Source: an uncultured Balneola sp.
Lineage (GTDB): Bacteria > Bacteroidota > Rhodothermia > Balneolales > Balneolaceae
Direction: 5' to 3'
Assembly (NCBI GenBank): GCA_913058495.1
Contig: CAJXQC010000004.1
Span: 1 to 64,000, forward strand
Length of the DNA stretch: 64,000 nt
Positions 46,216 to 64,000 of the stretch are shown one piece after another. The notes under the pieces are model-generated. The model did not search any database. It had not been told where the DNA came from and saw only the letters and a program-made list of their open reading frames with translations. Each line of letters opens with the position of its first letter. The stretch's first letter is position 1. The translations under genes were made by a program, and so were the position numbers.

Positions 46216-49200
46216 ATGACAAATTTTTTTACCAAATACCTCTTCATATCTGTAGCACTTTTTTTCGGGCTTAGTGAGATAGCAAATGCTCAACTTGGGT
46301 CATTTGCTGAAAGAAAGAAGTTTAATATAGAAAGTGATAGTATCAGTGGCGCTTCTGATCTAATAAATTTTCCGGTTCTGGTAAACGTAACTTTGCCATC
46401 GGGAGATGGGGAAAATGCAAACGGATTTGATATTGCTTTTACAGCTGGTGACGGTACTACACAACTGGACCATGACCTCGAATCTTATGATTCCGGTACG
46501 GGTGAGCTTGTAGCATGGGTCAGGTTCCCTTCTTTAAGTGCTACAACTGATACCCAATTTTTTATCTATTACGGTGACTCAGGGATTACCACCGATCAAA
46601 GCACAACTGATACTTGGAACTCGGATTATCAACTGGTAATGCATATGGACGGTGGCGCTACCGAAGATGATGCAACTTCTAATGCCAATGATGGCACAGA
46701 AAACGGAACGGGTGGAATTCCAACCACTTCAGGGAGAATCGGTGATGGTCGTGATTTTGAGCGGGGTGATTCAGACTTCATCTCTGTAGCAGATGATAAT
46801 AGTCTGGATATTACAGACGAAATCACAATTTCTTTCTGGTATAATCCGGAGTCAAACGCTGCACCTGATATGGTTACAAAGGGAACCAACACTTCATATG
46901 AGGCTACAATAAGGGGTGGTCCCCGAATGCAGTTCAAAAAAGAAGGTGGATCAAATCTTACTGCTGATGCTTCCTTTTCGCTCAGCAACTCAACATGGTA
47001 CTATTTAACCTATGTACAAGGAGCTTCAGGAAGGTCAATTTATCAAAATGGAGTTTCAATAAACACCGATGGCAATACGACTGCTTTTTCTACAAATGGA
47101 GATGCTTTACAAATTTCCAGATCAGGTGATGCCGCTGACGGCATTATTGATGAAGTCAGAATTTCTGATATAGAATTAAGCGAAGATTGGATAGCTACTG
47201 AATATGCTAACCAATTAAATCCCTCAACTTTTATAACAGAACTGGATGACCTGCCCAGCTTACAAAATATTGAATCAACTGCTGCAACATATACGGCAGG
47301 TGGTTCAGCAATATTTATTACATCCGATTTAACTATTGGAAGCCACCCCACTGTTACAACATTAGATAGTGCCGTAATTCAAATATCTAACAATCTAGAT
47401 AATCCTGATGATCAACTTGGCTTTTCTGATCAATTGGGAATTACCGGAACATATACCGCTGCAACCGGAAAACTTTTACTTTCGGGAACTACTTCTTTAG
47501 CCAACTACCAAACAGCGCTTAGAGCAGTTACTTTCAGTAGCCTTGTCGGGACTCCAAGCCAGCTCACAAGAACGGTTTCTATTACGGGGTACAATGGCTC
47601 TTCAGCTACCAACACTCCAGTTAGAGATATTGATATTATCTGCACATTAACTGATTTAACTACTGACATTTCAAATATCGTTTTCCATTTTGATGCACAA
47701 GATCTGGATGGAGACGGTACTGCAAATTCTGCGGAAGGTTCCCCTCCAACCAATAACTCTTCAGTTACTTTATGGGGAGATCTCAGCACAAACAATTTTG
47801 ATTTCGCTACAGGTACTGCAGCATTATTTGACTCCTCAGGCTTTGGTGAACGTGGTGCTGTTACCTTTGATGGAACGAACGATGAATTAATAAAAGGTGG
47901 AGAAGCGCTGATTAACAACGATGATTTCAGCCAAAAATCTTTTGCTATTACAATCCGTACAGGAACATCTACAGACGGATTTCAGGTAATATATGAGCAA
48001 TCCAGTGGCGGACTAGGTTATAATTTCAGTATCGTTGATGGAAATTTATACGCTCATGCTTACAACAGAAGCAGCGCAAATTGGGGTGCATCCAACTCCT
48101 TGAGACATCGAGTTATAAATCTTGGTACTGTGCAATCAAATCAATCCTACATAATCATAGCATATCATGATTCTAATGTTTGGGCTGCTGAGTTAAACAA
48201 CGGTTTACTAGAATCTTTTTCCGATGCCGCTGATATGAATTCTAATAACAATAGCATAGGCTTGGGTGGTAATGATGGCTCGCAGACCCGAAATCCAATT
48301 ACACTTTCGAATGAAAACGGAAATTTTAATGGACAAATTGTAGAATTTGCTTCTTGGAACACATCGCTAAACGGTGGGCAAAGAGCCAGTATATATAATT
48401 ATTTTAACGACAAATGGGGGAACGTTCCTCCTGTCTTATCTTCCATTGAAGGTACAAATTTAGATTTTACAGAAGGCGATCCGGATACTCAAATCACCAA
48501 TACTATTACTGTTTCAGACAGCGATTCTCATAACAATATGGATAGCGCAAAGGTATCTATAACTACAAACTTTATAACCGGTCAAGACTCTCTCATCTTT
48601 GCTAATACTGCAAATATTACCAGGACTTATAATGGAACTACGGGCGTGTTACTACTTTCGGGAAGTGATACAAAAACAAATTATCAAACTGCATTGCGAT
48701 CTGTCAATTATCGTAATACCCAATTTAATCCTTCAACGAATACTCGAACAGTTGAATTTGAAATTTATGACTGGGATGATGTAAGTAACACTGTGAGCAG
48801 AAACATAAATATCAACAATCCTGATGCAACACCTGTGCTTGCAAATATTGATAGTGGAGATTTAGCTTATACAGAAGGTAATGGTGCAGTAGCAATTACT
48901 TCTGCTATTACAGTATCTGACGTCGATGACACAAACATAGAAAGTGCAACTATTTCCATTACCGCTAACTACTTTATTGGTGAAGATTTTCTCGACTTTA
49001 CAGACACCGGAAATATTTCAGGCAGCTTTGCTTCAGGAAGTGGGATATTAACTTTAACCGGAAGCGATACTAAAGCGAATTACCAAACAGCGCTTAGAGC
49101 TGTAACTTATCAGAATACCAGCTCAGACCCGGTGACCCTTGACCGAACTATTTCTTTTGTCGTCAATGATGGAGATAATAACAGTAACACACAAAGCAGA

Positions 49201-52200
49201 GATGTGACAGTAGCTACAGTAAACTCGAAGCCTGTTCTTAGCTCTATTGAATCATCAAATATTCCTTATCCTGATGCTGCTGTTCAGATTACAAATACTA
49301 TTGTAGCTTCTGATCCTGATGATACCAGACTTGACAGCGCATTTGTAATAATTTCTGAAAATCTGAAACCTGCAGAAGATTCTCTTATTTATTCCACCCT
49401 TTTCGGAATTACGGGAAGCTGGAATCCAAATACAGGAATTCTCAAACTTACAGGGAATAATTTATTAAGCGATTATGAAGCAGCATTAAGATCTGTGGAT
49501 TATATAAATACTGCCACCATAGCGTCAGGCCCCGAACGAGTAGTTAGTTTTATCGTTAGTGACGGTGATCTCAAAAGTGATACTCTAAAACGTACCATCG
49601 ATGTAAGTCCGGTAGAAACCATTCCTGATCTTGAAGTTTGGCTTAGGGCAGATGCCGGAATTTCTGAAGGAAACGGAGTTTCTATTACGACCTGGGAAGA
49701 TCAAAGTGGGAATGGAAATGATTATACAGGTGCAGCTGGTTCAGGTACAACTCCGACTTTTGTAGCAAGTTCTGCAACTTTAAACAGTAAGCCATCGGTA
49801 AACTTTATAGGAAACGGAGATCACTTTCTCGATAGTGACGGACAAACAAATTACATCAACGGAAACAATGAGTTCAGTATGTTTATTGTTTATAAATCTG
49901 ATGTTACAAATACTGATAAAGGACTTTTTATAGCTGATTCTCCTTCAGGAGCTGATGAGATTCTGACTATTAGATACGACGCTTCAGGAGCAAATGGTGG
50001 TGGATCATTTAATGATGTAGTAAAAACCGGAATTCTGGGTAATGGTGCCGACAACCAGTTAGAAAGCTTTTCTGATATTCAAACATCCGGAGCACAAATA
50101 ATTAGCTTGCAATGGGAAAGCGGTACAACATACGATCTATATGTAGATGGAATTTTGAATAATCCGAGTTCTGCGGCTGACCCTCCCCCATCAGGAACAA
50201 TTACAACTGCAACTACTGCTTTGCTGGGAAAAGGAGGAAAAGATACCGGAAATAGCAGTTGGGATGGCGAAATAGCAGAATTCATTTTCTATAGTCGTAG
50301 TATTTCCCAAACGGAACGGGAAAGTATAGAGGATTATCTTGCAGACAAATATGATCAGGCAATTCGTAAAATTACTCCGGCGATTGGAGGAGAATCGATC
50401 TCAGCTGATGACGCAAATACTACTTACACTTCGTTAACTGGTCCATTTATTCAGGAAGGATTTATTGGTGAGTTTACATCTAGTGGAACAGTTATTCTTA
50501 ATGCTCCTTCAGGTTATCAATGGAATACAAGCGGAACAATTGGAGTAACTGAATCTCCTGCTTTTGGTGGATCAACAGAATTAGACGCTTCTTTCACCAG
50601 CATCACTTCAACTACAGCAACTTTTACCATAGATGTAGTTTCATCAACCAATCCTGGACAACTACAATTTACCGGCCTGGAAATTCGTCCAACAACAGGA
50701 ACTATGCCAAACACAGAAAATATTATCAATTCCGGAACAACCGGACAAGGTGGAGCAACCAATTACGGAACAATAACCATGGTTCCGGGATTGAAAGACA
50801 GTTTGGTGTTTGTTCAGCAACCAACAACTACATCAAAAGACTCGATCATTACTCCAGAAGTTCGGGTACAACTGGTAGATCAACACGGAAACAGTGTTGA
50901 AGAAGCAGGCATATCAGTTGGTATTAATCTTTTCGGTGGAGCAGGAATTTTATCAGGCACAACTTCCACAAATACAAATGCTTTAGGAATTGCTGAATTT
51001 GAAGACTTAAGCATTGATGATGTTGGTACTGATACATTACAAGCTACAAGTTCAGGATTAACTTCGTCCTTAAGCTCCTCTTTTAACATAGTGAATGATG
51101 GGGTTTTAACCGGATTTATCGTAGAAAGAGTACCCTCAGGAAATATCAGCTCTAAAACTGCAGGTCAAAGTTTCAATATCAAGATCACAGCCGTTGATGG
51201 CTCCTCTACTACTGTAACTTCGTTTAACGGAACTGTAGTAATTTCATCGAATTGCACAATGGACTCCGGGCAAGGAACTTCCTCCGTTTTTTCTTCCGGT
51301 GAACTTGCATCCACAACTGTAAGCATTACCAGTACAGGCTCTTGTACAATAACTGCTACCAATTCAGCCGGCTCTGAATTTGGAAACAGTAATTCATTTA
51401 GTGTAAGCGCAGGGGCTGCGTCTGAAGTAACATCGCTAATTTCTGCATCGCCAACAGTTATTTTGAATAACGGATCGAGTACTTCTGTAATAACAGTAGA
51501 TGTAAAAGACGAATTTGGTAATAATATAACTATTGGTGGAGATGCGATTACCTTATCAACCACCGCGGGCACCTTAGCCAGTACAAGCGGTTCAATTATT
51601 GATAACAGTGATGGAACATACTCTGATACTCTTACATCAACAATGGTTGAAGAAATTGCTACTATTTCAGGAACTGTAAATTCGACAACTATTACAGATA
51701 ATGCACTGGTAGAATTTGCCGCGTTCACTCATATTTGGGAGAGCCAACTTGGTTCTGCAAGCCTCGCATCAGACTGGGAAGAAACAGGAAATTGGAATGT
51801 CGGCAATGTACCCGGAACCAATTCTGTTGTTTTTATTCCTTTAAATCCTGCAGTAGGTAATGAACAACCTGTGATTGATGTTACAGGAAGTACAGTAGCT
51901 TCAGTTACCATGGAAACCGGAGCTTCACTATCCATTTCCGGAGGAATAAATTTCACAATCACGGGCAACCTTTCCGGAGGCAGCGTACTTGGAACCAATG
52001 CTGACAGCATCACTGTTGGAGGTGATATTCTGGATGTAAGTGCAATAAATGTTGGTACGGTTGTTATGAATGGAACTTCCGCCCAAAGTATTACTAACCC
52101 TCATGCATACACAAATCTTGTGATTGATAATGCTAACGGTGTAACAGTAGAAGAAAATCTCGCCATCAATGACAGTCTTATCATGACATCCGGCGAATTG

Positions 52201-53727
52201 CTTATACCAAGTGGAAAAAATCTTGTTGTTGATGGTATCAGATATGGAACCGGAACTTTACGTTTTCAAAGAAAAATATCTGGTGTAAGAGGGTGGCGCA
52301 TTCTCTCCTCTCCTGTTTCTTCTACATTTGGTGATTTTTTGGATGGCACATTAACCCAAGGATTCACGGGATCAACACTTGGCAATGCAACTCTTGATAG
52401 CTTACAACCCAATGTCCTTACTTATTTAGAAAGTTTTGAAGGCACTGACAATCAACGATACAGAAGTCCCGGAAACGCCACAGATCCATTAGTACAAGGT
52501 CAGGGTATTTTTGTGTTCTTTTTTGGAGACATAGCAGCAGATGCTCGCTATAATAATCCGCTTCCGGATACACTAGATGTTAGTGGACAAGAATTTAATG
52601 GTGCAGCCGGTGAAGTGGATTTTGGAGTCACTTATACCGCAAACGCTGATACAGGTTGGAATTTAGTGGGCAATCCTTTTGGCGCCACAATTAATTGGGA
52701 CGACTCACCAAACTGGACCAAAACCAATATCGAGAACACTATCTATATTTGGGACCCGGCTGCCAATGGTGGTAATGGTGAATATCTAACTTGGAATGGT
52801 ACCACAGGAACACTCGGTAGTGGTTTAATTCCACCATTTCAGGGATTCTGGATTAAAGCAAATGGTTCAACTCCTGTTCTAAAAGTTACTACTGACTCCA
52901 AAACAACCGGAGGATCGTTCCTAAGAAAAGAAATTAGGACGGAACAAACCAATGATGTCCCTTTGCTAACATTGGAACTTACCTCCAATGGATTAAAAAA
53001 AGATGCGAGCTTTATGTTTACTGATAATGCTTCAGAATCAAAAGATAATTTTGATGCATTTGAACTACTCCCTTTTACTGAAAACCGTTTAGAAATATTC
53101 AGTTTGCTAGATGATGGAACACCACTTGTCATAAACAACCTTCCGCTTGAGTTTACAAACAGATACTTACTTCCTGTAAATATAAATGGGTATAAAGAAG
53201 GCATTCCGATTTCGGGCGATTTCAAAATTAGAGGGAAAAATCTTGATAACATCCCAGATGAGTGGCTGATTTCGTTGATCGATAATGAAACAGGTGAGGA
53301 AATAGATCTTATAAATCAAGAAGAATACACGTTCTTTCACTCTACCAAAAGCAAAGCTAAAGTAGCCAACCCGAATACTAAACAAAAAGTAATTCGAAAA
53401 AAAGCCGGAGACGCACGATTCACTTTGAAAATTACAACTGAGGAAATCGAACTTAATATCCCGGAACAGCCTTTTTTATCACAGAACTATCCAAATCCTT
53501 TCAACCCAACTACCACCATTCCATTTGGCTTAGATGTAGATTCACAAGTTAGTTTGATTGTATATGATATTCTTGGCAGAAAAGTAGCTACTCTAATCGA
53601 CGGAAAACGACCGGCTGGTGTATATTATGAAATATTCATCGGATCACACTTAGCAAGTGGGGTTTACTTTTATCGTCTTTCTACAGATTCTCAAATTTAT
53701 ACTAAGCGATTCACTCTTATCAAATAG
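46216..53727 (+). CDS. Giant multidomain surface protein with T9SS sorting domain, paralog B
   Basis: A 2503-residue protein built like paralog A: signal peptide ending NAQ (about 26), DUF2341 (FPVLVNVTLPSGDGENANG), LamG-like domain, one cadherin-like repeat, second LamG-like domain (HFDAQDLDGDG), three cadherin-like repeats (nt 48430-49610), third LamG-like domain (VWLRADAGISEGNG), the ITPAIGGESISADDANTTYT domain, three Ig-like domains, the GWRILSSPVSS module and a sorting domain with QNYPNPFNPTTTIPF. It has one cadherin-like repeat fewer than paralog A before the second LamG. It starts at ATG 116 bp after paralog A and is followed by the fimbria-motor locus on the same strand. A role as adhesin is inferred. 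Confidence 0.88.
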   Translation: MTNFFTKYLFISVALFFGLSEIANAQLGSFAERKKFNIESDSISGASDLINFPVLVNVTLPSGDGENANGFDIAFTAGDGTTQLDHDLESYDSGTGELVAWVRFPSLSATTDTQFFIYYGDSGITTDQSTTDTWNSDYQLVMHMDGGATEDDATSNANDGTENGTGGIPTTSGRIGDGRDFERGDSDFISVADDNSLDITDEITISFWYNPESNAAPDMVTKGTNTSYEATIRGGPRMQFKKEGGSNLTADASFSLSNSTWYYLTYVQGASGRSIYQNGVSINTDGNTTAFSTNGDALQISRSGDAADGIIDEVRISDIELSEDWIATEYANQLNPSTFITELDDLPSLQNIESTAATYTAGGSAIFITSDLTIGSHPTVTTLDSAVIQISNNLDNPDDQLGFSDQLGITGTYTAATGKLLLSGTTSLANYQTALRAVTFSSLVGTPSQLTRTVSITGYNGSSATNTPVRDIDIICTLTDLTTDISNIVFHFDAQDLDGDGTANSAEGSPPTNNSSVTLWGDLSTNNFDFATGTAALFDSSGFGERGAVTFDGTNDELIKGGEALINNDDFSQKSFAITIRTGTSTDGFQVIYEQSSGGLGYNFSIVDGNLYAHAYNRSSANWGASNSLRHRVINLGTVQSNQSYIIIAYHDSNVWAAELNNGLLESFSDAADMNSNNNSIGLGGNDGSQTRNPITLSNENGNFNGQIVEFASWNTSLNGGQRASIYNYFNDKWGNVPPVLSSIEGTNLDFTEGDPDTQITNTITVSDSDSHNNMDSAKVSITTNFITGQDSLIFANTANITRTYNGTTGVLLLSGSDTKTNYQTALRSVNYRNTQFNPSTNTRTVEFEIYDWDDVSNTVSRNININNPDATPVLANIDSGDLAYTEGNGAVAITSAITVSDVDDTNIESATISITANYFIGEDFLDFTDTGNISGSFASGSGILTLTGSDTKANYQTALRAVTYQNTSSDPVTLDRTISFVVNDGDNNSNTQSRDVTVATVNSKPVLSSIESSNIPYPDAAVQITNTIVASDPDDTRLDSAFVIISENLKPAEDSLIYSTLFGITGSWNPNTGILKLTGNNLLSDYEAALRSVDYINTATIASGPERVVSFIVSDGDLKSDTLKRTIDVSPVETIPDLEVWLRADAGISEGNGVSITTWEDQSGNGNDYTGAAGSGTTPTFVASSATLNSKPSVNFIGNGDHFLDSDGQTNYINGNNEFSMFIVYKSDVTNTDKGLFIADSPSGADEILTIRYDASGANGGGSFNDVVKTGILGNGADNQLESFSDIQTSGAQIISLQWESGTTYDLYVDGILNNPSSAADPPPSGTITTATTALLGKGGKDTGNSSWDGEIAEFIFYSRSISQTERESIEDYLADKYDQAIRKITPAIGGESISADDANTTYTSLTGPFIQEGFIGEFTSSGTVILNAPSGYQWNTSGTIGVTESPAFGGSTELDASFTSITSTTATFTIDVVSSTNPGQLQFTGLEIRPTTGTMPNTENIINSGTTGQGGATNYGTITMVPGLKDSLVFVQQPTTTSKDSIITPEVRVQLVDQHGNSVEEAGISVGINLFGGAGILSGTTSTNTNALGIAEFEDLSIDDVGTDTLQATSSGLTSSLSSSFNIVNDGVLTGFIVERVPSGNISSKTAGQSFNIKITAVDGSSTTVTSFNGTVVISSNCTMDSGQGTSSVFSSGELASTTVSITSTGSCTITATNSAGSEFGNSNSFSVSAGAASEVTSLISASPTVILNNGSSTSVITVDVKDEFGNNITIGGDAITLSTTAGTLASTSGSIIDNSDGTYSDTLTSTMVEEIATISGTVNSTTITDNALVEFAAFTHIWESQLGSASLASDWEETGNWNVGNVPGTNSVVFIPLNPAVGNEQPVIDVTGSTVASVTMETGASLSISGGINFTITGNLSGGSVLGTNADSITVGGDILDVSAINVGTVVMNGTSAQSITNPHAYTNLVIDNANGVTVEENLAINDSLIMTSGELLIPSGKNLVVDGIRYGTGTLRFQRKISGVRGWRILSSPVSSTFGDFLDGTLTQGFTGSTLGNATLDSLQPNVLTYLESFEGTDNQRYRSPGNATDPLVQGQGIFVFFFGDIAADARYNNPLPDTLDVSGQEFNGAAGEVDFGVTYTANADTGWNLVGNPFGATINWDDSPNWTKTNIENTIYIWDPAANGGNGEYLTWNGTTGTLGSGLIPPFQGFWIKANGSTPVLKVTTDSKTTGGSFLRKEIRTEQTNDVPLLTLELTSNGLKKDASFMFTDNASESKDNFDAFELLPFTENRLEIFSLLDDGTPLVINNLPLEFTNRYLLPVNINGYKEGIPISGDFKIRGKNLDNIPDEWLISLIDNETGEEIDLINQEEYTFFHSTKSKAKVANPNTKQKVIRKKAGDARFTLKITTEEIELNIPEQPFLSQNYPNPFNPTTTIPFGLDVDSQVSLIVYDILGRKVATLIDGKRPAGVYYEIFIGSHLASGVYFYRLSTDSQIYTKRFTLIK
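48430..49610 (+). repeat. Three cadherin-like repeats in paralog B
   Basis: Units begin near 48430, 48832 and 49231 with PVLSSIEGTNLDF, PVLANIDSGDLAY and PVLSSIESSNIPY and follow the same pattern as in paralog A. A further, more degenerate unit lies at about 47262-47640, before the second LamG-like domain. Confidence 0.75.
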
Positions 53728-53844: not shown

Positions 53845-54360
53845 ATGAAGATTGTATCCAAAGCGTTATTTATAGTTTTACCTATTCTCCTGGGACTTAC
53901 TACTGGTGGATTTGCTCAAAAATCATCTCAAACTGCTAAAACCAATATAGAGATCACAACAACCATTGTAAGTTCTATAGAGCTTATTACCGTCAAAAGT
54001 ATCACTGTTGGAAACCTTCAACCTGGTCAGGAGGAAGTGTACATTAACTCCATAAATGACGCTAATGCGGGGTATATGATAGCTGTTGGCGCTCCTGGTG
54101 CTGATTTCAGGTTGAATTTTGAAAGAACAAGGACGCTTACTCAGGTAAATGGTGATGGAAGTTTAATTTTTGAATACGAACTTTCCGGAAATAATCTAGA
54201 AGATCAAAATAGTGCTGAATACATTGATGAAGATTTTAGAAGTCTTAAATTTAATTCTGAAGGTCAATTTCATATATGGGTTGGAGGGAAAATTGATTTA
54301 AGGAACGCGCGTCCCGGAAACTACGATGGAGATTTTACTATTGAAATTGAGTACATATAA
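53845..54360 (+). CDS. DUF4402-like pilin candidate 1
   Basis: A 171-residue exported protein with a signal peptide ending GFAQ (about 25). The mature protein is a single beta-rich domain whose C-terminal strand pair HIWVGGKIDLRNARPGNYDG is characteristic of DUF4402-type fimbrial subunits. It is the first of four such genes placed before a chaperone and an usher-like gene. Its stop overlaps the start of the next gene (TAATG). By analogy with chaperone-usher fimbriae it should be exported and assembled at the outer membrane; whether it is the shaft or a tip is not known. Confidence 0.75.
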   Translation: MKIVSKALFIVLPILLGLTTGGFAQKSSQTAKTNIEITTTIVSSIELITVKSITVGNLQPGQEEVYINSINDANAGYMIAVGAPGADFRLNFERTRTLTQVNGDGSLIFEYELSGNNLEDQNSAEYIDEDFRSLKFNSEGQFHIWVGGKIDLRNARPGNYDGDFTIEIEYI

Positions 54361-54968
54361 TGAGGTTTCTACAAACTTACATATCTGCTTGTTTATTAAA
54401 TGCCATTTTGGTTTTCTGCTTCACAGAAAATTCGACTGCTCAGGAAATTGATTTCGGTTCTTATAGTTCTGTTTACTCAGTTACGTTATCTGAGTTAAAC
54501 ATTGGGGAAGAATTAGATTTCGGATTACTGATACAAAACGAGGGATTGGTTTCAATACCAATAGCTGAATCCAAAGTTCTATCAATTTTGGGAGTTAAGT
54601 ACCTGGATGTAATTGTTGATATTACTGCAGATAATTATCTTCTGCTTAACGGCAACTTATCCTGCTCTACAGATCCTAGTTGCAGGATTCCATTCACTTT
54701 ACAAGCCTCCTATGCCAATAATGGATCCAATACTTTCAGCCAAGCTGTAAATTTCACAGTTGTTTCAAATGTAGCTAGTGCACAATTTCCGATAAAGCGC
54801 AGAGCCGGCGGACCGCCAAGCCCCCCGCCTACTCCGGTTTACGAAGGCTATAACCCTAATCTTTTTCAGGAAACAGCTTATCTTTATATATATGGTTCTT
54901 TAAATGTAGGCAACATAAATGCCGGCAGTTACACTGCTGATATAATAATTACTATTAGCTATGATTAA
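54360..54968 (+). CDS. Divergent pilin-like secreted protein 2
   Basis: A 202-residue exported protein (signal peptide ending STAQ, about 28). It is a more distant relative of the neighbouring pilin candidates: its end LYIYGSLNVGNINAGSYTAD aligns with the GGxID...GxYxGD ending of the other three. It carries two cysteines (CSTDPSC) that could form a small disulfide loop, and a proline-rich stretch GGPPSPPPTPV before the last strands. It overlaps both neighbours (1 bp upstream, 8 bp downstream). It may be a minor or adaptor subunit; this is inferred. Confidence 0.65.
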   Translation: MRFLQTYISACLLNAILVFCFTENSTAQEIDFGSYSSVYSVTLSELNIGEELDFGLLIQNEGLVSIPIAESKVLSILGVKYLDVIVDITADNYLLLNGNLSCSTDPSCRIPFTLQASYANNGSNTFSQAVNFTVVSNVASAQFPIKRRAGGPPSPPPTPVYEGYNPNLFQETAYLYIYGSLNVGNINAGSYTADIIITISYD

Positions 54969-55479
54969 TAACCTTGCTAAGATATTATTTTTATTATTTC
55001 TAGTGGTTTCACACAAACCTCTTTCCGCACAATTTATAAACCTTCAAATCACCATCGAACCTGAATTAAGTGCACAGGTAGAGCAAGTACTGGACTTTGG
55101 ACAGGTTGTTTCTAACTCAGGTGTTATGCAAATCGAACTTGGTGATTTGAATACAGGAATATTCAGCATTCGTGCTATAAGGTCCCAGTCTCTATATATA
55201 GAACTTAATCATCCTGATTTTTTGACTCGTGAAAATAATCCATCTGATCAGATTCCTTTAGAATTAAATGTGTCGTATAACAATTCGGGAAATGATAACA
55301 TCTCTAAATCACAAATACTTGCAGATCGCTCCGGTACCATAACAATTGGTGGTTCTGAAAACAATTCAGAGAATTTTTGGCGCAAACTTTATTTATATGT
55401 ATACGGATCTATTGATGTAGGTAACATTCCAAATGGACTATATAAAGGAGACGTTACACTCTTTGTAAGCTATGATTGA
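54961..55479 (+). CDS. Divergent pilin-like secreted protein 3
   Basis: A 172-residue exported protein with a signal peptide ending LSAQ (about 21). It shares the pattern of the preceding protein: a VLDFGQVVSNSGVMQIELGD beta segment and a C-terminal YLYVYGSIDVGNIPNGLYKGD. It starts 8 bp inside the previous gene, so their translation is coupled. It probably belongs to the same surface structure as the other pilin candidates. I cannot assign a specific role. Confidence 0.65.
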   Translation: MINNLAKILFLLFLVVSHKPLSAQFINLQITIEPELSAQVEQVLDFGQVVSNSGVMQIELGDLNTGIFSIRAIRSQSLYIELNHPDFLTRENNPSDQIPLELNVSYNNSGNDNISKSQILADRSGTITIGGSENNSENFWRKLYLYVYGSIDVGNIPNGLYKGDVTLFVSYD

Positions 55480-55598
55480 TTCTATAACCAATTATTAAAA
55501 GCTTCTAATTAAGAAAACCTAACTTTTTATTCGAGGATATTCTAAATAGCTTGTGAATGGAATTTTAAAATCAATCTTTATTTCTAAATAATAAAATT

Positions 55599-56138
55599 AT
55601 GAAAACTCTATTGAAATCTACTTTAGTTGTTTTGGCTGCTCTTTTGGTCTCTGGAACTTCTTTTGCACAAGGTTCATCAGATGATGCTACTGTATCTGCA
55701 AATGCCAATGTTGTAGCTGCTCTTACAGTTACTAATGTTTCTGACTTAAGCTTTGGAGACATCCTTACATCAGAAACTCCAACCATTAGTGCTACTACTA
55801 CAGGAGCTGGTTCTGTTTCAGTTTCCGGTGCAACAAGTGGTCAAACACTTAACGTAACAATAGATTTCCCTTCTGTTCTTACGGACGGAACTCCTGCTAA
55901 CGATTTATCATTTGATACTTACAGTGCAGCTGTTACAGCTTCTGGAAACGATTCTGATCCTACAAACGGTGTTGCATTAACTGGTGCTGCTACAGCAGGA
56001 ACTCAAATCACAGGAACTTTCGTTGCAGGAGCAACTGCAGCCCATATTTTCGTGGGTGGTCAAATTGATGACGCTTCAAGTGGTGTTGCTGGTAATTCAT
56101 ATGCAAACAATATTACAGTAACTGTAGACTATAACTAA
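55599..56138 (+). CDS. DUF4402-family pilin, probable major subunit
   Basis: A 179-residue exported protein with a signal peptide ending SFAQ (about 24) and a low-complexity, Ala/Thr/Ser-rich mature part without cysteine. It contains DLSFGDILTSETPTIS and ends AHIFVGGQIDDASSGVAGNS followed by a Tyr-containing beta strand, the DUF4402 pattern. It has its own upstream gap of 120 bp and a strong terminator right behind it, unlike the other three subunits. That would allow much higher expression than the rest of the locus, as expected for a fibre shaft protein. Confidence 0.8.
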   Translation: MKTLLKSTLVVLAALLVSGTSFAQGSSDDATVSANANVVAALTVTNVSDLSFGDILTSETPTISATTTGAGSVSVSGATSGQTLNVTIDFPSVLTDGTPANDLSFDTYSAAVTASGNDSDPTNGVALTGAATAGTQITGTFVAGATAAHIFVGGQIDDASSGVAGNSYANNITVTVDYN

Positions 56139-56156
56139 TTAATGATAGTTTAGTTT

Positions 56157-56193
56157 AAAAAAGTCTTATTTGAATAAAATAAGACTTTTTTTT
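56157..56193 (+). terminator. Rho-independent terminator after the probable major pilin
   Basis: AAGTCTTATTT (56161-56171) pairs perfectly with AAATAAGACTT (56177-56187), a five-base loop between, followed by a run of eight T overlapping the arm. Leaky readthrough could set the level of the downstream chaperone, usher and motor genes. Confidence 0.88.
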
Positions 56194-56266
56194 GTAGGTT
56201 AAGAGAAGCTGAAATACTTTTATTCAGCATTTTTGCTTATGTTTTACAAAACCAATTAAAAAGCAT

Positions 56267-57097
56267 ATGAATAAATCTCTATACGCTATTACACTCCTTA
56301 TTTTATCTTTAAGCAGTATTACTGCTTTTGCACAGGTTACTATTGCTCCTACCAACTTATTTATTGATGACAATTCTAAGTTTGGTACTTATATGGTAAT
56401 TAACGGGTCCAATGAAACACAAGAAATTTCTATTGATTTTTTCTTTTCCTATGCAAATTTAGATAAAAACGGCAACCGTTCTTTAATCAAAGACGATATT
56501 GAAAAAGCTGAACAGCATTCTATTGTTGAATATGTACAAGCTTTTCCAAAAAACTTTAAACTTGCCCCGGATCAGCGACAAATTGTTCGATTGAGAGTTT
56601 CTGCTCCAAATGATCTTTCTGACGGCACTTATTGGTCTAGGATCAGAACATCTTCTACTCCAGAATCCCCACCGATAGAGCTGCAAACGGATCAAGCAGT
56701 TACAGCTCAGGTTGGCATTATAGTGGAACAAGTAACAGGGCTTTTTTATAAAATTGGGAACGTTAATACCGGTATAGAAATTAATACGATTCGCTCTGAA
56801 AGAGACGGGTCAAAATTGACTGTGCTTACTGACTTTTTGAAAACAGGTAACTCTCCTTTTTTAGGTTCGATATATACTTCCTTATTGGATCAATCAGGCA
56901 GAGAAGTAAAGACAGGATTCATTTCTACATCTATCTACTTTGATGGAACTCACAAACAGGAATTGGATATATCTGATTTAGCTAATGGTACTTATACAAT
57001 AAAAGTAACTTTTGAAACTAATCGCTCCGATATCTCTGAAAGAGACATTGTTGGTATGGAACCTGTAAACCAAACAACTTCTTTTGAAATCAATTAA
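56267..57097 (+). CDS. PapD-like periplasmic fimbrial chaperone
   Basis: A 276-residue exported protein with a signal peptide ending AFAQ (about 23). The N-terminal Ig-like domain begins VTIAPTNLFIDDNSKFGTYMV and includes NFKLAPDQRQIVRLRV, where the family motif for donor-strand pairing lies. The second domain has IRSERDGSKLTVLTDFLKTG. It is somewhat longer than classical PapD (about 240). Chaperones of this kind hold pilin subunits in the periplasm until delivery to the usher. It is 2 bp ahead of the usher-like gene, consistent with that role. Confidence 0.85.
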   Translation: MNKSLYAITLLILSLSSITAFAQVTIAPTNLFIDDNSKFGTYMVINGSNETQEISIDFFFSYANLDKNGNRSLIKDDIEKAEQHSIVEYVQAFPKNFKLAPDQRQIVRLRVSAPNDLSDGTYWSRIRTSSTPESPPIELQTDQAVTAQVGIIVEQVTGLFYKIGNVNTGIEINTIRSERDGSKLTVLTDFLKTGNSPFLGSIYTSLLDQSGREVKTGFISTSIYFDGTHKQELDISDLANGTYTIKVTFETNRSDISERDIVGMEPVNQTTSFEIN

Positions 57098-57099
57098 CC

Positions 57100-60081
57100 T
57101 TGAAGTGCAAAACTTCTTTTTTATATACAATTCTTACAGTTCTATTGTGCTTAAGTTCTGCAAAAGGACTGTCCGCTCAGGATACAACTGAAGAAACAGA
57201 AGTTTATTTAGACTTTCAATATCAAGGTGTGGTTAAAACAGTAGTAATAAGCTACTATAAAAATGATATTTTCTTTCTTCCGGTAACAGAACTATTCTCT
57301 CTTTTCAAAGTTCAGAATTCAAGAGAGGGAAATATAATTACCGGTAAATTTTCTGCAGATCAAACTCCTTTCAGAATTGATCTTGCTAAGCAAACAATTA
57401 AATTCGGTAATAAACAATTTTCTTTATCTACAGATGATTTCATTATACAGGAATTAGATGATTACCTCTCCCCCGGTATTTTTTCTGAAATATTTAAACT
57501 GAATTTCTCGGTTGACTTCAACAAGCTGATATTAAACCTTGAAACAGAAGTAACTTTACCCGTCGTTGAGGAAGCTTTAAGAAACCGACGGCGAAAAGTT
57601 GTAGAGGCTAATACCTATCAAAAAAATTATTATGACTTAGCTCTTGACAGAAATAAATCATTCTTGAATGGAGGTTTTGTTGATTACTCTTTAACAAGCT
57701 TTGTAACCAACAATGAAAACAGCTATTCCTATAGTACATCTTTAGGTTTACAGCTGGCCGGAGGAGACCTTCAGGGAAATGTATTTGGCAATTATACGAA
57801 CAACTTTAATATTTCCAGCAACAATCTTCGATGGAGATATGTAATTCGGAATAATCCCGCAATTACACAAGTTTATGTTGGGCAATCAACACTAGATGGG
57901 GTTTTAAGTTCGAATTTTACAGGCCTAAAAATTTCCAATCAACCCATAGAACCCAGAAGATACTTTGATGAATACGTTGTTCAAGGTTCTACAATTCCTG
58001 AATCAGAAGTTGAACTTTATTTAAATAATGCTTTGATCGGATATGAAAAATCTGATGAACTTGGCAATTATCGCTTTACAACACCTCTTTATTACGGAAC
58101 CTCTGATCTCGATTTGAAAATTTATGGTCCGACCGGACAAACTATTGACAAATCCACGAAAATTCAGGTTCCTTTCAGTTTCTCACCTCAGGGAGAATTT
58201 AATTACAACTTAAATGCCGGGGTTCTTGATAATCCATTATTAGGTTCAACAGAGCGTCCTTTGGTTGTTAATGCCAAAGCAACTTACGGTATAAAAAGTT
58301 GGCTTTCAGGCTCTCTTGGTACTGAATATTTTGAAGGAGCAATGGAAAATTCAACTCCAGCCCTTACAGGTGCCCTCTCAACTCGGTTTCTAACAAGTTA
58401 TATCCTTACTCTTGAAGGTGTTTCTCAAGGTTATTACAGATCAAATCTAAATGCATTTTTTGCGAACTCGGCAAACTTCAGTATAGATTTCACCAAATTT
58501 ACATCTGAATCAATCCTGTATAATTCTTCCGGAAGGGATAAGCAACTAAATACATCCTTTTTTTATCCTTTCACTGTAGGTAATCTGCCTTTAATTTCCA
58601 GAGTATCTACTTTCACTGTGTTCAGAGATGATGTTCAGTCTACTTCATTACGTTTAGATTTAAGTACAAGAATAAATAAATTTAATTTCAGGTTTGGATA
58701 CTCTGACCGTGTTCTTAATTCTTATAACTTTCTGGATCCAAGTTTTTCTTCTACTCTTGATAATTCCATTACTTATAACATTTCCAGAAACCCCAACATC
58801 CCAAAAATACTCCGGGGAACTTTTTTAAGAGCACAAATGCGGTTTTTACCAAAATTATCTAAAATTGAAACTGCTCAATTTGTTATCTCCAGAAATCTGT
58901 TTAATAGCGGGCGATTACAATTATCATATGGCCGAAACTTTATTAATAATTTTAATAACGTAAGAGCGAGTTTTGTAATTGACTTCAACAAAGCCAGATC
59001 AAACTCTACCTTTTCTTCAATCCGTTCAGATTATAGTGTTTCTCAAAATATTCGGGGCTCTTTGGGTTACGATACGAACTATAATAACTTTATTGTTACA
59101 AGCAGAAATCAGGTAGGAAGATCCGGAGCCGCTATCAAACTTTTTGTAGACAATAACAATAATGAAAGGTATGATGAGGATATCGACCAGCCAATTGACG
59201 CCGGCTCTATTAGAATAGACCGAACCTCAGCTTCTTCATTCCGTAAAAATGGAATTTTGTATTACTCACAAATGCAGCCTTATTTCCGCTATAATATGCA
59301 GGTTAATAAAGGCTCTATTGAAAACCCCTTATTAGTACCTGAACTTAATGAGTTTTCGATTATCACGGATCCGAATACCTTCAAAAAAATTGAAATTCCT
59401 TTTTATATGTCTGGAGTTATTGAGGGTAATGTCAATAAATATTTTGATGAACAAAACAATAGCGGGATAGGTGGCGTGAGAGTTCTTATCTCAGGTATTG
59501 ATAGCGACTTTTTCAAGGAATTGAGATCGTTTTCTGACGGTAGTTTCTACTCCTATGAAGTCCCACCCGGAAAGTATAAAATGAGCATTGATCAGAATCA
59601 GCTTAGTGTACTGGATTCCAGATCTGAGCCCGGTGAAATTGAATTTGAGGTACAAGCTTTGTCAGAAGGAGATTTTGTTGAAGGCTTATCGTTTCTTATC
59701 GTACCAAATGATTACAATCCTGATCAAAAAGAAGTAAGACCTACAGATGTTATTATAGCTGATATTAGTGAAACTACTGAGATCCTTGAACTAGAGGCAG
59801 AACTAGATGATAATATCACTAAAACTTTAAGGCTTATTATACAGGCGCAAACTGCTTTTTACAACAGAGATATTGAACGGGCTCTGACATTAGTCAACCA
59901 GTCATTAAGCTTATTTGAAACTGCACAAGGTTACGCTTTGAAAGGAAGTCTTAATTATTTGAAAGGTAATAAAGACGAAGCTCAACAGAACTGGGATCGG
60001 GCAGTAGAATTCAATCCGGATATCTTTATTCCGGATATAGAAATATTAGACCAATTAATTAGAACTCAACCAGGTAACTAG
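57100..60081 (+). CDS. Usher-like outer-membrane protein with regulatory-type and TPR-like C-terminal extension
   Basis: A 993-residue exported protein starting at TTG, 2 bp after the chaperone stop. After the signal peptide (about 1-26) come an N-terminal domain, a beta-barrel-like region of alternating strands, and the usher middle-domain signature FDEYVVQGSTIPESEVELYL with NALIGYEKSDELGNYRF. A long second barrel half follows. Residues about 685-870 hold FVDNNNNERYDEDID and a carboxypeptidase-regulatory-like domain (GVRVLISGIDSDF, EVPPGKYKMSID). The last 90 residues are TPR-like (AFYNRDIERALTLVNQSLSL, ALKGSLNYLKGNKDEAQ). Classical ushers lack this TPR tail. A similar segment closes the lipoprotein at 61963-62439. 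It is predicted to secrete and anchor the pilins. Confidence 0.78.
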   Translation: MKCKTSFLYTILTVLLCLSSAKGLSAQDTTEETEVYLDFQYQGVVKTVVISYYKNDIFFLPVTELFSLFKVQNSREGNIITGKFSADQTPFRIDLAKQTIKFGNKQFSLSTDDFIIQELDDYLSPGIFSEIFKLNFSVDFNKLILNLETEVTLPVVEEALRNRRRKVVEANTYQKNYYDLALDRNKSFLNGGFVDYSLTSFVTNNENSYSYSTSLGLQLAGGDLQGNVFGNYTNNFNISSNNLRWRYVIRNNPAITQVYVGQSTLDGVLSSNFTGLKISNQPIEPRRYFDEYVVQGSTIPESEVELYLNNALIGYEKSDELGNYRFTTPLYYGTSDLDLKIYGPTGQTIDKSTKIQVPFSFSPQGEFNYNLNAGVLDNPLLGSTERPLVVNAKATYGIKSWLSGSLGTEYFEGAMENSTPALTGALSTRFLTSYILTLEGVSQGYYRSNLNAFFANSANFSIDFTKFTSESILYNSSGRDKQLNTSFFYPFTVGNLPLISRVSTFTVFRDDVQSTSLRLDLSTRINKFNFRFGYSDRVLNSYNFLDPSFSSTLDNSITYNISRNPNIPKILRGTFLRAQMRFLPKLSKIETAQFVISRNLFNSGRLQLSYGRNFINNFNNVRASFVIDFNKARSNSTFSSIRSDYSVSQNIRGSLGYDTNYNNFIVTSRNQVGRSGAAIKLFVDNNNNERYDEDIDQPIDAGSIRIDRTSASSFRKNGILYYSQMQPYFRYNMQVNKGSIENPLLVPELNEFSIITDPNTFKKIEIPFYMSGVIEGNVNKYFDEQNNSGIGGVRVLISGIDSDFFKELRSFSDGSFYSYEVPPGKYKMSIDQNQLSVLDSRSEPGEIEFEVQALSEGDFVEGLSFLIVPNDYNPDQKEVRPTDVIIADISETTEILELEAELDDNITKTLRLIIQAQTAFYNRDIERALTLVNQSLSLFETAQGYALKGSLNYLKGNKDEAQQNWDRAVEFNPDIFIPDIEILDQLIRTQPGN

Positions 60082-60098
60082 GAGTATAAAAAGTTCCT

Positions 60099-61925
60099 AT
60101 GACAATCAGAATGTATACGTTGGTTAAAGAATATTTGAGTAATTATTTGATATTGAGATCTCTGTTTTCTCTTTTGATGATCTTATTTATTTCAAATTTA
60201 TCAGTTAAGGCACAAGCTTCCCGTGTCACTTCGCAATCAGGAGAACTTCAAATCGCTTCTCTTGAACAGGCATACGATTCACAAGTTATTTTGATACTTT
60301 CTAATCATTTTGATAGAAAGAAATTTTTCGTGGACGTGAATATTGACGCTGAATTTATCGAGGAAACTATTCAAACACCCGGCACTCAAACTATAGAGAG
60401 AAACCCTCAAAGCTTTTTACCAGGTCTGCCTTTTCTCCCCGATGAAAATCTGCAAAGCTCACAAACTTCACAAGCCACCCCTCAAACTACTACAAACCAA
60501 ACAACTTATAAGACTTTACAGTTAAACAGCCTTGCTATTAATATATATGCCGATACCTCACTTTCTGATAGTGATTTAGATTTTATGAGGCGTGTGACCG
60601 GCTTTGCCGCTAAAGTAGACTTTACAAGAGGCGATTTAATAAATATTACTCAACTAGCCATCCCTAATCCTGATTTTGAACCAGCTGTAGTTATAACAAA
60701 TACTCAAGAACCCGAGCCTAAATCTCTCTTAAGTTCTTTCAAAGACTATCTGGTTGAAATAATTTTGCTTGCTGTATTCCTACTTGGACTATTTGGTTAT
60801 GGCATGTTCAGAAACTCAAAAGATAAATCTGATTTTCAAGCTCAAAGACAAAACCTTAAAAGTGATATAACTTTAGAGGGAAGTTTAAACCCGGATAGTA
60901 ATGTTTCTTTTTTCGGAAGTTCAAAAGAACAGTCCCGGAATATTGTTTCTGAATTTGAATTAGTGTCTGAAAACTTCTTTAAATATCCACAAGAAGTTTC
61001 TTTGGTTTTTGAATTTTGGATTGACAGTGATGAAAAAAATGGCCCTTCAAATGTAGCTGAAGTTGTTTCTTCTATAGATTCAAGTTCTCTTAAATTACTG
61101 CAAAATCATATTGACGAAGAAAAACTGGAGACTATCAAAGCAGCAATCAGAGATTTACCTCCAATGTCTATCGATGAAAAGTATAGAGCTGCAAAGTATT
61201 TTAACTCTGTTATTGAAGACGAAAACACCGATGAAAAATCAACCAAAAAGCATGCTAAGCTAGGGCTATTTAAATTTCTTACACACTTATCTGATGAGTT
61301 GTTAACTGAACTCATAAAAACTGAAAATAATGTAAGTGCTGCACTCATAATTGATTATTTACCGGAGGATAAAGCAGCTTCTATCCTAAACACATTTGAA
61401 AGATCCCGAGCTGCTGAAATCATGCTTAAAATGTCTACCCTGCATACGCTCTCCTATAAAGAACAAAGTAAAATTTCCAGCGGATTGTTTGAAAAAGCAA
61501 TCTTGGTGAGAGATAATGTACATGAGCAAGATTTTGGTGTGGAGAACATTTTACCGATTCTTGAAAACCTTCCTGTGAACGAGCAGAAAAGATATATTGA
61601 GCAATTGAAATCAACAGGTTCACCGGTTGGCACAATATTAGAAAAAGAATTCTTTACCATAGACCAGATCCCGGAATTGGAAGACGAAGTTGTCAAAAAT
61701 GGTGTTGAAGAAATTGACACTTCAACATTGCTGGAAGCGCTGGTTGGTCTTGAACCTGAATCTATTGATAAAATACTGACCGGAAGACCTAAACGAGAAC
61801 AACAATTGATTCGACTTGAGCTTGAATCTATAAACGGTGAGCATCAAACCAATAATGATGCAAAAAAGAAACTTGTCAGCTCACTTAGGAAATCTTTAAA
61901 ATCTAGTAAAGCAGATCAGCAATAA
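60099..61925 (+). CDS. FliF-like / FliG-like fusion protein (motor rotor component)
   Basis: A 608-residue inner-membrane protein. Residues 1-38 are a signal peptide. Residues 45-190 match the FliF RBM3 domain (FVDVNIDAEF, then LNSLAINIYADTSLSDSDL, then GFAAKVDFTRGDLI), with a Gln/Thr/Pro-rich insertion at about 95-137 where FliF has its beta-collar. A membrane span lies at 217-236. The cytoplasmic part aligns with FliG: armadillo M-domain (about 398-470, LIIDYLPEDKAASILNTFE), ARM-C (about 479-515, GVENILPILENLPVNEQKRY), a degenerate MFxF hinge (FFTI, 518-521) and the C1-6 torque-helix domain (522-600). The FliF YscJ-like RBM1/RBM2 part is absent. The EHPQR motif reads ENNVS. It lies 17 bp after the usher and precedes the lipoprotein and MotA. 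Confidence 0.82.
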   Translation: MTIRMYTLVKEYLSNYLILRSLFSLLMILFISNLSVKAQASRVTSQSGELQIASLEQAYDSQVILILSNHFDRKKFFVDVNIDAEFIEETIQTPGTQTIERNPQSFLPGLPFLPDENLQSSQTSQATPQTTTNQTTYKTLQLNSLAINIYADTSLSDSDLDFMRRVTGFAAKVDFTRGDLINITQLAIPNPDFEPAVVITNTQEPEPKSLLSSFKDYLVEIILLAVFLLGLFGYGMFRNSKDKSDFQAQRQNLKSDITLEGSLNPDSNVSFFGSSKEQSRNIVSEFELVSENFFKYPQEVSLVFEFWIDSDEKNGPSNVAEVVSSIDSSSLKLLQNHIDEEKLETIKAAIRDLPPMSIDEKYRAAKYFNSVIEDENTDEKSTKKHAKLGLFKFLTHLSDELLTELIKTENNVSAALIIDYLPEDKAASILNTFERSRAAEIMLKMSTLHTLSYKEQSKISSGLFEKAILVRDNVHEQDFGVENILPILENLPVNEQKRYIEQLKSTGSPVGTILEKEFFTIDQIPELEDEVVKNGVEEIDTSTLLEALVGLEPESIDKILTGRPKREQQLIRLELESINGEHQTNNDAKKKLVSSLRKSLKSSKADQQ

Positions 61926-61962
61926 ACAGTACATATCGAATGCTATCATTCTCGGTATCTGC

Positions 61963-62439
61963 TTGATGTCGACATCACTGCTATTTTCTTGCGGAAGTTC
62001 TAAAGATATGCCTGTTAATGAACCTGTAAATGCAGATCAAAATGAAGAAACTTTAGCTCAAACTGATAGTTCTGAGACAATTAGCCCCGACATTGATCTC
62101 GAAAAACAAAGAAGGGATTCGCTCACTCAAGTTTATAAAGATGAGCTTTACAAAGACTATCAGACGAAAGCCAACAGAATTACTACACTTTATATTCTTG
62201 CTCAGCAAAAATTTTATAGTGCTGAGTATCAGGACGCTCTATTTTTAATAAACCGTGCTTTACAGGTAAAGGAAACTGCTGATCTGTTAGCTTTGAAAGG
62301 AAGTATTTATTTGGGATTGGGTTCTGTTGAAAACTTCGTGGCTTTTTGGAGAAGGGCTCTCGAAATGGATGCAAACTTACCCATTCCTCCTTCTCCAGCC
62401 ATTGTTGAAGAATTAAAGAGGCAAGGCTTAATAGAATGA
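61963..62439 (+). CDS. TPR-like lipoprotein of the fimbria-motor locus
   Basis: A lipoprotein of about 158 residues with lipobox LLFSC. The first canonical start (TTG 61963, then ATG 61966) leaves only about eight residues before the cysteine. However, the frame is open upstream to 61900 and encodes a proper signal (NKQYISNAIILGICLMSTS), so translation may begin earlier at a rare start codon such as ATC 61915 or ATT 61948. The mature part has a charged linker and a TPR-like C-terminal region (AQQKFYSAEYQDALFLINRA, LALKGSIYLGLGSVENF) that resembles the tail of the usher-like protein. It probably sits on an envelope leaflet and bridges usher and motor; this is inferred. Confidence 0.7.
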   Translation: MMSTSLLFSCGSSKDMPVNEPVNADQNEETLAQTDSSETISPDIDLEKQRRDSLTQVYKDELYKDYQTKANRITTLYILAQQKFYSAEYQDALFLINRALQVKETADLLALKGSIYLGLGSVENFVAFWRRALEMDANLPIPPSPAIVEELKRQGLIE

Positions 62440-62474
62440 AAACACTTAAAAATTTATTAAACCATAACTAAGAC

Positions 62475-63272
62475 ATGCGCACATCATTTTTAAACATTTT
62501 TTGTTTCTTAGTTTCATTATCCATTTTAATATGGGGAGCCCTTCTTGTGGTTGGGTTTGCTCAATACAATATGATTCCATCTAAATATGAATTTCTGAAC
62601 CTTCCCAGCCTAGCCATTGTATTTGGAGGTATATCAGCAAGCGTATTTATCAGTTATCCATTTAAAAAAGTCATAGTAGCATTACGCGAAAGCACTCGAC
62701 TTTTTTCTCAAAGCAATATAGATGATCAATTACTTGAAAAGGATATTGAAAAAGTTTTAGAATGGCAGAAAAGAATACGGATCGATAAAATTAAAGCCGT
62801 TTCTGAATTAAGTGAAGAGTATGGAAATCGTTTTGAGGGGTATCTTTTTTCAATTTTAGATACTAATTATTCAACTGAAGATCTTCGTGAGTTAGCAGAA
62901 ATAAATATTCAGGAAACATTCACACGGCAACATCAGATCAATCAAATAATAGCGAGTATGGGTAAAACAGCTCCTGTCTTCGGTATGCTGGGTACACTAT
63001 TTGGACTTATTGTTATTCTATCCGGTTTTAATGAGATGGATTCACTGTTAACAGGACTTGCTGCTGCATTGATGACTACACTCTATGGAATAGTAATTGG
63101 GAACTTCATCTTTATTCCAATGGCAAAAAAGATGAATAATATTGCTTCTCTTCAATTTTTCAGAGAAAAACTGATATTGGAAGGTATTCTGTTGATTCAA
63201 CAACAAAAATCTTCACTTCAGATCTACGACAAACTCAAAGCTCATATGCATAGAACGAGCCAACAATTTTAG
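62475..63272 (+). CDS. MotA-like stator subunit
   Basis: A 265-residue inner-membrane protein of the MotA/TolQ/ExbB group, closest to MotA by its length, its four spans and its large cytoplasmic loop. Spans lie at about 9-29, 45-62, 165-185 and 195-216. The MotA-type signatures GKTAPVFGMLGTLFGLIVIL (Pro167) and GLAAALMTTLYGIVIGNFIF with Pro215 line the ion path. The loop region (about 70-155) carries basic and acidic residues (LEWQKRIRIDK, AVSELSEEYGNRF) as in MotA surfaces that contact FliG. It is 35 bp after the lipoprotein gene and followed 11 bp later by a MotB-like gene. It most likely forms an ion-driven stator acting on the FliG-like fusion. Confidence 0.88.
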   Translation: MRTSFLNIFCFLVSLSILIWGALLVVGFAQYNMIPSKYEFLNLPSLAIVFGGISASVFISYPFKKVIVALRESTRLFSQSNIDDQLLEKDIEKVLEWQKRIRIDKIKAVSELSEEYGNRFEGYLFSILDTNYSTEDLRELAEINIQETFTRQHQINQIIASMGKTAPVFGMLGTLFGLIVILSGFNEMDSLLTGLAAALMTTLYGIVIGNFIFIPMAKKMNNIASLQFFREKLILEGILLIQQQKSSLQIYDKLKAHMHRTSQQF

Positions 63273-63283
63273 GGTAGCGGAAA

Positions 63284-64000
63284 TTGAGTTTAGACCAGAC
63301 AAATAACACTAAAAATTCACTGTATCCTAAGCAGGAAATTGAAAATGAAGATGACGACAGTTGGCAAGTAAGTTATCTTGATATTATAACCATTCTCCTT
63401 GGTTTTTTGATCATTTTACTTTCTTTCTCAGACTTAAATGATGGTGAGCCCTTTTCTGTTTCTGAATTGTTCAAATCTTCTTTGAATGAAACCGAGTTTA
63501 TCACTACACCCATTGAAAACATTAAAGAAGAACTTGAAGGATTGCTGGCTCCTGAAATTGAACAAGGTAAACTTGAAATATTCAGAGAACTAAATGATGT
63601 CCGAATCAGATTTAAAAGCGACGATCTTTACAGTTCCGGAAGTGCAACTCTGGAAAACGAAGCATCAGAAATACTTAACCGTGTTTTAGCAGCTTTCAGG
63701 ATTATATCTTATGACGATTTTGAAATAGACGTTGAAGGCCACACAGATAACGTCCCTATTTCTTCTGCTAACTTTGATTCGAATTGGGAGTTATCTACCT
63801 CAAGAGCATCCAATATTGTAAAATATTTCAGTGAAATGGGGATTGCACAGGAACGTTTAAAAGCATCCGGTTATGCTGACTCCAGACCTTTGGTTGAATT
63901 TGATGAACAAGGCAATCCTTATCCTGCAAGCAAGGACAGAAACCGAAGAGTTGTTCTCCGGTTATTCTATTCAAGTCCGGAACAAATGGCAAAAGCAGAT
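63284..64000 (+). CDS. MotB-like stator subunit (3' end beyond window)
   Basis: An open frame of at least 239 residues starting at TTG 63284 and running off the window. It has a single membrane span near the N-terminus in which WQVSYLDIITILLGFLIILL carries the ion-binding Asp33 at the MotB position. A linker follows, then an OmpA/MotB peptidoglycan-binding domain with EGHTDNVPI, WELSTSRASNIVKYF, RLKASGYADSRP and KDRNRRVVLRL. Together with MotA it should form a peptidoglycan-anchored stator. Being incomplete here, its length and any extra C-terminal domain cannot be judged. Confidence 0.88.
   Translation, partial: MSLDQTNNTKNSLYPKQEIENEDDDSWQVSYLDIITILLGFLIILLSFSDLNDGEPFSVSELFKSSLNETEFITTPIENIKEELEGLLAPEIEQGKLEIFRELNDVRIRFKSDDLYSSGSATLENEASEILNRVLAAFRIISYDDFEIDVEGHTDNVPISSANFDSNWELSTSRASNIVKYFSEMGIAQERLKASGYADSRPLVEFDEQGNPYPASKDRNRRVVLRLFYSSPEQMAKAD

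Follow-up and report, generated by a model that had tools for sequence, protein, structure and literature searches.

A Balneola gene cluster in which a flagellar-type motor is probably coupled to a chaperone-usher fimbria

Why should a bacterium without a flagellum carry, in a single run of genes, the parts of a chaperone-usher fimbria and the parts of a flagellar motor? Chaperone-usher pili are textbook fibres that are assembled at the outer membrane and held there without any cellular energy source, and FliG counts as a hallmark of flagella. The locus that raises the question lies at the end of the window, the stretch of 64,000 nucleotides analysed here, which is part of contig C4 in a genome of 3.40 Mb and 99% completeness, that of a marine member of the genus Balneola, Balneolaceae. 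From position 53845 on, ten open genes follow one another on the + strand with intergenic gaps of -8 to +129 bases, in the order four pilin candidates, chaperone, usher, FliF-FliG fusion (FliFG), TPR lipoprotein, MotA and MotB, confirming the same-strand run reported in a preliminary description of this DNA. The answer that we consider probable on balance is a machine spanning the cell envelope, with an ion-driven rotary motor that docks to a chaperone-usher fibre and exerts torque on it. Physical coupling of the motor to the usher is well supported by sequence relationships, the motor probably turns the fibre, and we infer that ion flow would move it.

The fimbrial half opens with PilA (53845..54360), PilB (54360..54968) and PilC (54961..55479), which match DUF4402 marginally (4.8e-5 for PilA); 15 of 25 pilin homologues match the family, with a best value of 2e-6, and PilB and PilC are assigned as pilin candidates by Pfam and by the conserved locus. 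The fourth, variable candidate, PilD (55599..56138; homologues in L044 and L117), matched no Pfam family significantly as a single sequence and was called by its position and sequence style. The DUF4402-like character first ascribed to all four therefore stands for three of them and not for PilD, which is possibly the main shaft subunit. The periplasmic chaperone candidate (56267..57097) always lies directly 5' of the usher gene, in keeping with the PapD-like role proposed for it, but PapD_N was recognised weakly and in only two of 17 homologues (best E 7e-4), which makes this the weakest assignment of the locus. A profile test against EcpB gave no match for the chaperone, and the tests with Escherichia coli EcpA, EcpB and EcpC gave no signal, all with single sequences as targets.

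The usher had no Pfam usher match, and sequence-profile searches of the usher and the chaperone against the PDB returned nothing useful. Its identity was settled by a fold search: the 19 best PDB matches of the AlphaFold model (pLDDT 77) are all FimD or PapC (Foldseek E 1e-9 to 1e-29), so that the predicted structure of the usher body (residues about 1-890, 57100..59769) is that of a FimD/PapC-type outer-membrane barrel with plug and periplasmic domains, as the label "usher-like" had implied. The locus resembles known chaperone-usher systems in its plug-bearing barrel with periplasmic domains and, more tentatively, in its chaperone candidate and its several small pilin candidates; as to donor-strand exchange, by which pilins of that pathway are joined, the candidates offer the similarity to DUF4402 only. 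It differs from them in an usher too remote for the Pfam usher models, in the C-terminal TPR or SPOR tail that ushers of these loci bear, and in its linkage to an ion-driven motor. The C-terminal part of the window's usher is a TPR tail (residues about 891-993, 59770..60081), as judged by identity to the related genome G007 and by profile matches.

The motor half begins with FliFG (60099..61925). Pfam models of FliG_C (9e-10) and FliG_M (1e-8) scored above cut-off, the single FliFG sequence matched FliF_C only weakly, and a FliFG profile reached solved FliG (1.9e-29) and FliF (8.8e-5) in the PDB. In the structural model, residues 44-189 align to Salmonella FliF 230-438 (RBM3/collar) and residues 314-604 to FliG 5-322, the whole protein with its N, M and C domains. 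FliFG lacks RBM1 and RBM2; its periplasmic part of only about 170 residues aligned to RBM3/collar alone. Profile and model agree with the proposed fusion: FliFG is a natural FliF-FliG fusion that joins the ring-building RBM3 and collar, through a membrane helix, to all of FliG. In flagellar FliF, RBM1 and RBM2 surround the export apparatus, and a FliFG devoid of both fits a genome devoid of the export gate FlhA. The equivalent of FliG Arg281 is present in 22 of 24 aligned sequences and an acidic residue at 289 in equally many (R566 for R281 and E574 for D289 in the window), and the FliM-binding EHPQ motif of FliG is ENNV in the window, which agrees with the absence of FliM/FliN from the genome.

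Downstream follow a TPR lipoprotein (61963..62439), recognised by Pfam TPR and a lipobox-like FSC|GSS, which presumably places it in the outer membrane as an adaptor, and the stator subunits. MotA (62475..63272; MotA_ExbB 2e-18) retains both channel prolines, the equivalents of Pro173 and Pro222 being kept in all 24 sequences; its contact charges are less conserved, with Lys or Arg at Arg90 in 21 of 24 and mostly Ser at Glu98, the latter in a region of unsure alignment. MotB (MotB_plug 3e-7, OmpA 6e-15) starts at 63284, does not end within the window (63284..64000) and runs on to contig position 65008. The full protein of 574 amino acids comprises the equivalent of the channel residue Asp32 (residue 33 in this MotB; kept in 24 of 24), a plug, an OmpA peptidoglycan domain and a SPOR-like tail. 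A RBM3/collar ring protein, a whole FliG and a MotAB pair with channel and contact residues are shared with the flagellar motor, from which the locus departs in having FliF and FliG as one protein without RBM1/RBM2, in the SPOR-type module on MotB, and in belonging to a genome without export gate, FliM/FliN or flagellin.

We found no FlhA (the type III export gate), no FliM/FliN switch and no flagellin in the window's genome, which thus holds no flagellar gene set that this FliFG could serve, just as the window alone had suggested. The two further MotA-family genes of the genome are ExbB genes adjoining ExbD, leaving the window's MotAB as its only MotAB. FlhA is likewise absent from all eight genomes of the genus examined (the window's and seven others). 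Four other genomes (G017, G028, G032 and G041) combine this cluster, or its FliFG, with a flagellum that has its own FliG, which makes the cluster independent of flagella. It occurs both with a flagellum and without one. As a side observation, Balneola vulgaris has been listed as flagellated (PMC5167729), whereas a genome study reported Balneola to be without a flagellar assembly pathway (PMC9909488); with FlhA missing from eight of eight genomes, the appendage of B. vulgaris merits re-examination.

The order pilins-chaperone-usher-FliFG-TPR-MotA-MotB is intact in 14 Balneolaceae loci (the window, L036-L046, L112 and L114), which excludes a chance neighbourhood, and remains recognisable in divergent form elsewhere in the order, in families other than Balneolaceae (L057, L060, L061, L062 and L115, some of them cut by contig ends). 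The linkage of the two halves predicted from the window is thus conserved across genera. A scan of the named genome contigs with patterns specific to the Balneolaceae type found 10 loci, and Balneola metagenome-assembled genomes and Balneola sp. EhC07, which the records do not label as a metagenome assembly, are among the sources of FliFG relatives at 78-90% identity. Two loci, L058 and L059, are ring-only: along with a TPR usher they encode a FliF-like protein that lacks FliG_C, and no MotAB lies beside them. L064 is likewise ring-only, with usher-TPR, a FliF-like protein without FliG_C and no MotAB beside it. L058 has LysM in addition, and the TPR lipoprotein of L064 itself ends in a SPOR-like stretch.

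Further evidence of coupling comes from the ends of the ushers. Searched with an usher profile, 79 relatives also yielded ushers from many genomes that have no FliFG. Pilins, chaperone and usher body in these motorless loci are the same as in the motor loci. The site, too, is shared by many of them: they lie beside the genes pdhC, pdhB, pdhA and alaS, which follow MotB on the opposite strand of contig C4 past the end of the window, and loci of Balneola G002 and G005 (L116, L117) are among these. In motorless ushers the profile matches only to about residue 885, although the protein is longer, and they end in SPOR domains, which bind peptidoglycan. In the Balneolaceae motor loci, the usher ends in TPR and the SPOR-type module is on MotB, whose last about 250 residues share homology with the SPOR tails of motorless ushers along the entire module (78-111 bits by profile for the nearest tails, nearly full length). 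The tie to the wall would sit on the usher when the usher is fixed and on the stator when the usher is driven, an arrangement that makes physical sense. A profile that contains the usher tail retrieved from the 79 genomes (E <= 1e-10) TPR proteins that adjoin FliFG wherever the neighbourhood was checked, and it found the window's own TPR lipoprotein at 2.3e-14. The coupling of motor and fibre, inferred in the preliminary description, is thereby reinforced: the usher's TPR tail is homologous to the motor lipoprotein and inherited with the motor, and the SPOR anchor is on MotB where there is a motor and on the usher where there is none.

Comparison with close relatives locates the joint between the two halves. 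Between the window and G007, identity is 97-99% in the pdh genes, 97% in MotA, 89% in FliFG and 84% in the usher tail; it is 46-65% in the usher body, 52% in the chaperone and 46-61% in the pilins, so that a step from about 55% (body) to 84% (tail) falls within the usher gene, around residues 870-900. G005, which is motorless, belongs to a more distant species (86-92% in the pdh genes), yet its pilins and chaperone are 54-68% identical to those of the window, and its fimbrial half is closer to the window's than that of G007 is. The step and the G005 comparison imply that each fimbrial half is swapped or diverges as one block while the tail stays with the motor; as far as these sequences tell, the usher's TPR tail is inherited with the motor and not with the usher body. 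Against the close Balneola relatives L036-L039, the fimbrial half of the window (53845-59769) likewise shows 38-65% identity beside 92-100% in the pdh genes, which suggests that the surface fibre is exchanged as a module or is under diversifying selection.

A tree of usher bodies requires at least eight changes of tail type, a count that stays at eight when three unclear rows are dropped, among them L127, which a contig end truncates. The tail differs in seven independent pairs, and the motor differs in the same direction in 6.5 of them on average and in the opposite direction in none (sign test, p about 0.03; exceptions L058 and L059). Tail types are intermixed, with 5-7 changes, in the trees of every usher-body segment and of the upstream genes, whereas the SPOR modules split only once, by host protein (98/99). 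This contrast implies that whole 3' cassettes were exchanged. An in-frame deletion from the usher body to the SPOR module of MotB had been considered as the origin of each motorless locus, and the SPOR tree led us to reject it for the repeated transitions. The likeliest history is a single ancestral rearrangement, possibly one fusion or fission, after which two 3' cassettes repeatedly replaced each other at one locus.

In the machine that we propose, MotAB, fixed to the wall by the OmpA domain and the SPOR-type module of MotB, would push the FliG half of FliFG, which would form an inner-membrane ring from the FliF RBM3/collar domain alone and turn. The collar side of the ring may engage TPR proteins below the outer membrane, where a layer of TPR lipoprotein, the obvious bridge across the gap between inner-membrane collar and usher tail, would serve as an adaptor that passes the rotation on to the usher's TPR tail. 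This tail would make the usher part of the TPR layer, and usher and fibre would be turned or twisted; the torque might serve to rotate, twist or drag an adhesive fibre and so help the cell to attach to a surface or to move. No switching is expected, because FliM and FliN are absent. Supporting this proposal are the linkage, the retained motor residues, the sole MotAB, the TPR match, the co-change of tail and motor, the placement of SPOR and the identity step. Several points weigh against it. The main difficulty is the gap between collar and usher tail: the periplasm is wide, and a short linker with a TPR tail of about 90 amino acids may not meet the FliF collar without further parts; no rod or bushing protein was seen. 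Without FliM/FliN, the C-ring is unlike known ones, though FliG alone bears the stator contact. As tail and motor genes are adjacent and one recombination moves both, their co-change does not count as fully independent evidence of function and indicates a functional unit only jointly with the domain logic of TPR tail and SPOR placement. Finally, the lack of FliG_C and MotAB in L058 and L059 means that the ring may also be a static platform.

What else could a motor do at an usher? It might drive biogenesis of the fibre, with FliFG/MotAB pulling or gating the usher for subunit export, growth or retraction in the manner of ExbBD and TonB-dependent transporters. That the motor connects with the usher and not with a fibre subunit speaks for this, and gating of the usher plug would be a natural target of force; sister loci, however, share the pilins, the chaperone and the usher body and yet are motorless, which makes assembly independent of the motor, and a full ring rotor with the FliG torque domain exceeds the needs of a TonB-like puller. 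We therefore regard a role in biogenesis as unlikely, if worth keeping in mind. A gliding engine, in which several ushers per FliFG ring or travelling motor complexes would move the fibres as adhesins, with an effect like that of Myxococcus Agl-Glt or Flavobacterium SprB, could draw on the many docking sites of a many-fold ring, on the type IX secretion system (T9SS; SprA) of the genome and on the large surface protein encoded next door. It strikes us as rather doubtful, given that the OmpA domain and SPOR-type module of MotB argue for stators fixed to the wall and that no gliding has been reported for Balneolaeota (PMC5167729).

The ring and stator could instead act only as a mechanosensor or static platform that delivers no useful torque to the fibre. 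The ring-only L058, L059 and L064, which retain the usher-TPR and a FliF-like protein without FliG_C, fit such a role, but all 14 full loci keep FliG_C and MotAB with conserved channel and contact residues, none of which a platform needs, and we judge this improbable. Hardly credible at all are accidental neighbours or FliFG/MotAB left over from a lost flagellum: the family does include flagellated relatives, but the conserved order, the genomes that have both the cluster and a true flagellar FliG, the RBM3-only FliF and the exchange of tails all contradict it. The relic was rejected on the absence of flagellar genes from the genome and the separate flagellar FliG that coexists with the cluster in relatives.

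The motor module also occurs without a fimbria. In a set of loci that we call system B (L047-L056, L065 and L113), FliFG, a protein X of about 360 amino acids with a weak match to outer-membrane barrels, a TPR lipoprotein, MotA and MotB stand together without chaperone, usher or pilins. This further motor without a flagellum, which shares the motor module and TPR lipoprotein with the window's locus and has protein X in place of the fimbrial genes, is often found in the same genomes as the fimbrial motor cluster. A third form, with the order TPR-MotA-MotB-FliFG and no usher nearby, occurs in another class of the phylum (L108-L111). FliFG, TPR lipoprotein, MotA and MotB constitute the core common to the cluster forms. 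Whether a flagellar-type motor rotates the chaperone-usher fibre of the fimbrial form, which would make this form a new class of rotary surface appendage powered by ions, is a question on which we stand evenly divided; in such a class, a standard module of these four proteins would be plugged into exchangeable fimbrial modules by the usher tail and into another outer-membrane protein in system B.

We know of no FliF/FliG rotor in the Agl-Glt system, from which the window also differs by the plug and OmpA domain of its MotB and by its FliFG ring protein. The Myxococcus Agl-Glt gliding/Nfs machinery is similar in that a MotA-family motor moves a surface component without a flagellum (PMC3858216), and AglRS groups with non-flagellar generic transporters (PMC12505986). 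The rotary gliding motor of T9SS/GldLM consists of different parts, and T9SS is encoded separately in the genome (SprA). Searches of the open literature, with subscription journals and preprints mostly outside their scope, found no fimbria-MotAB, FliF-FliG or usher-SPOR system, and a broad survey of stators makes no mention of ushers or Balneolota (PMC12505986). No described machine of this kind was found there. Rotor proteins in non-motile species are a stated open question (PMC12199754), to which the locus offers a concrete answer in the form of half a flagellar motor joined to another fibre. If the proposal is true, a rotary machine of a new kind is added to those known, the FliF/FliG/MotAB core is portable as a module and does not require the export apparatus, and the finding bears on the origin of flagella by the combining of parts.

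Directly upstream of the pilins, the + strand encodes a secreted surface protein of 2503 amino acids (46216..53727) with LamG, invasin D3 and a T9SS sorting tail, a possible associated adhesin. Relatives of this protein lie 5' of the pilins in many loci, both motor-bearing and motorless. Several relatives additionally encode a DUF4900 protein between the large surface protein and the pilins (L117:3856-5136, L042:3185-4639), which the window lacks; that of L042 shows a weak bactofilin match.

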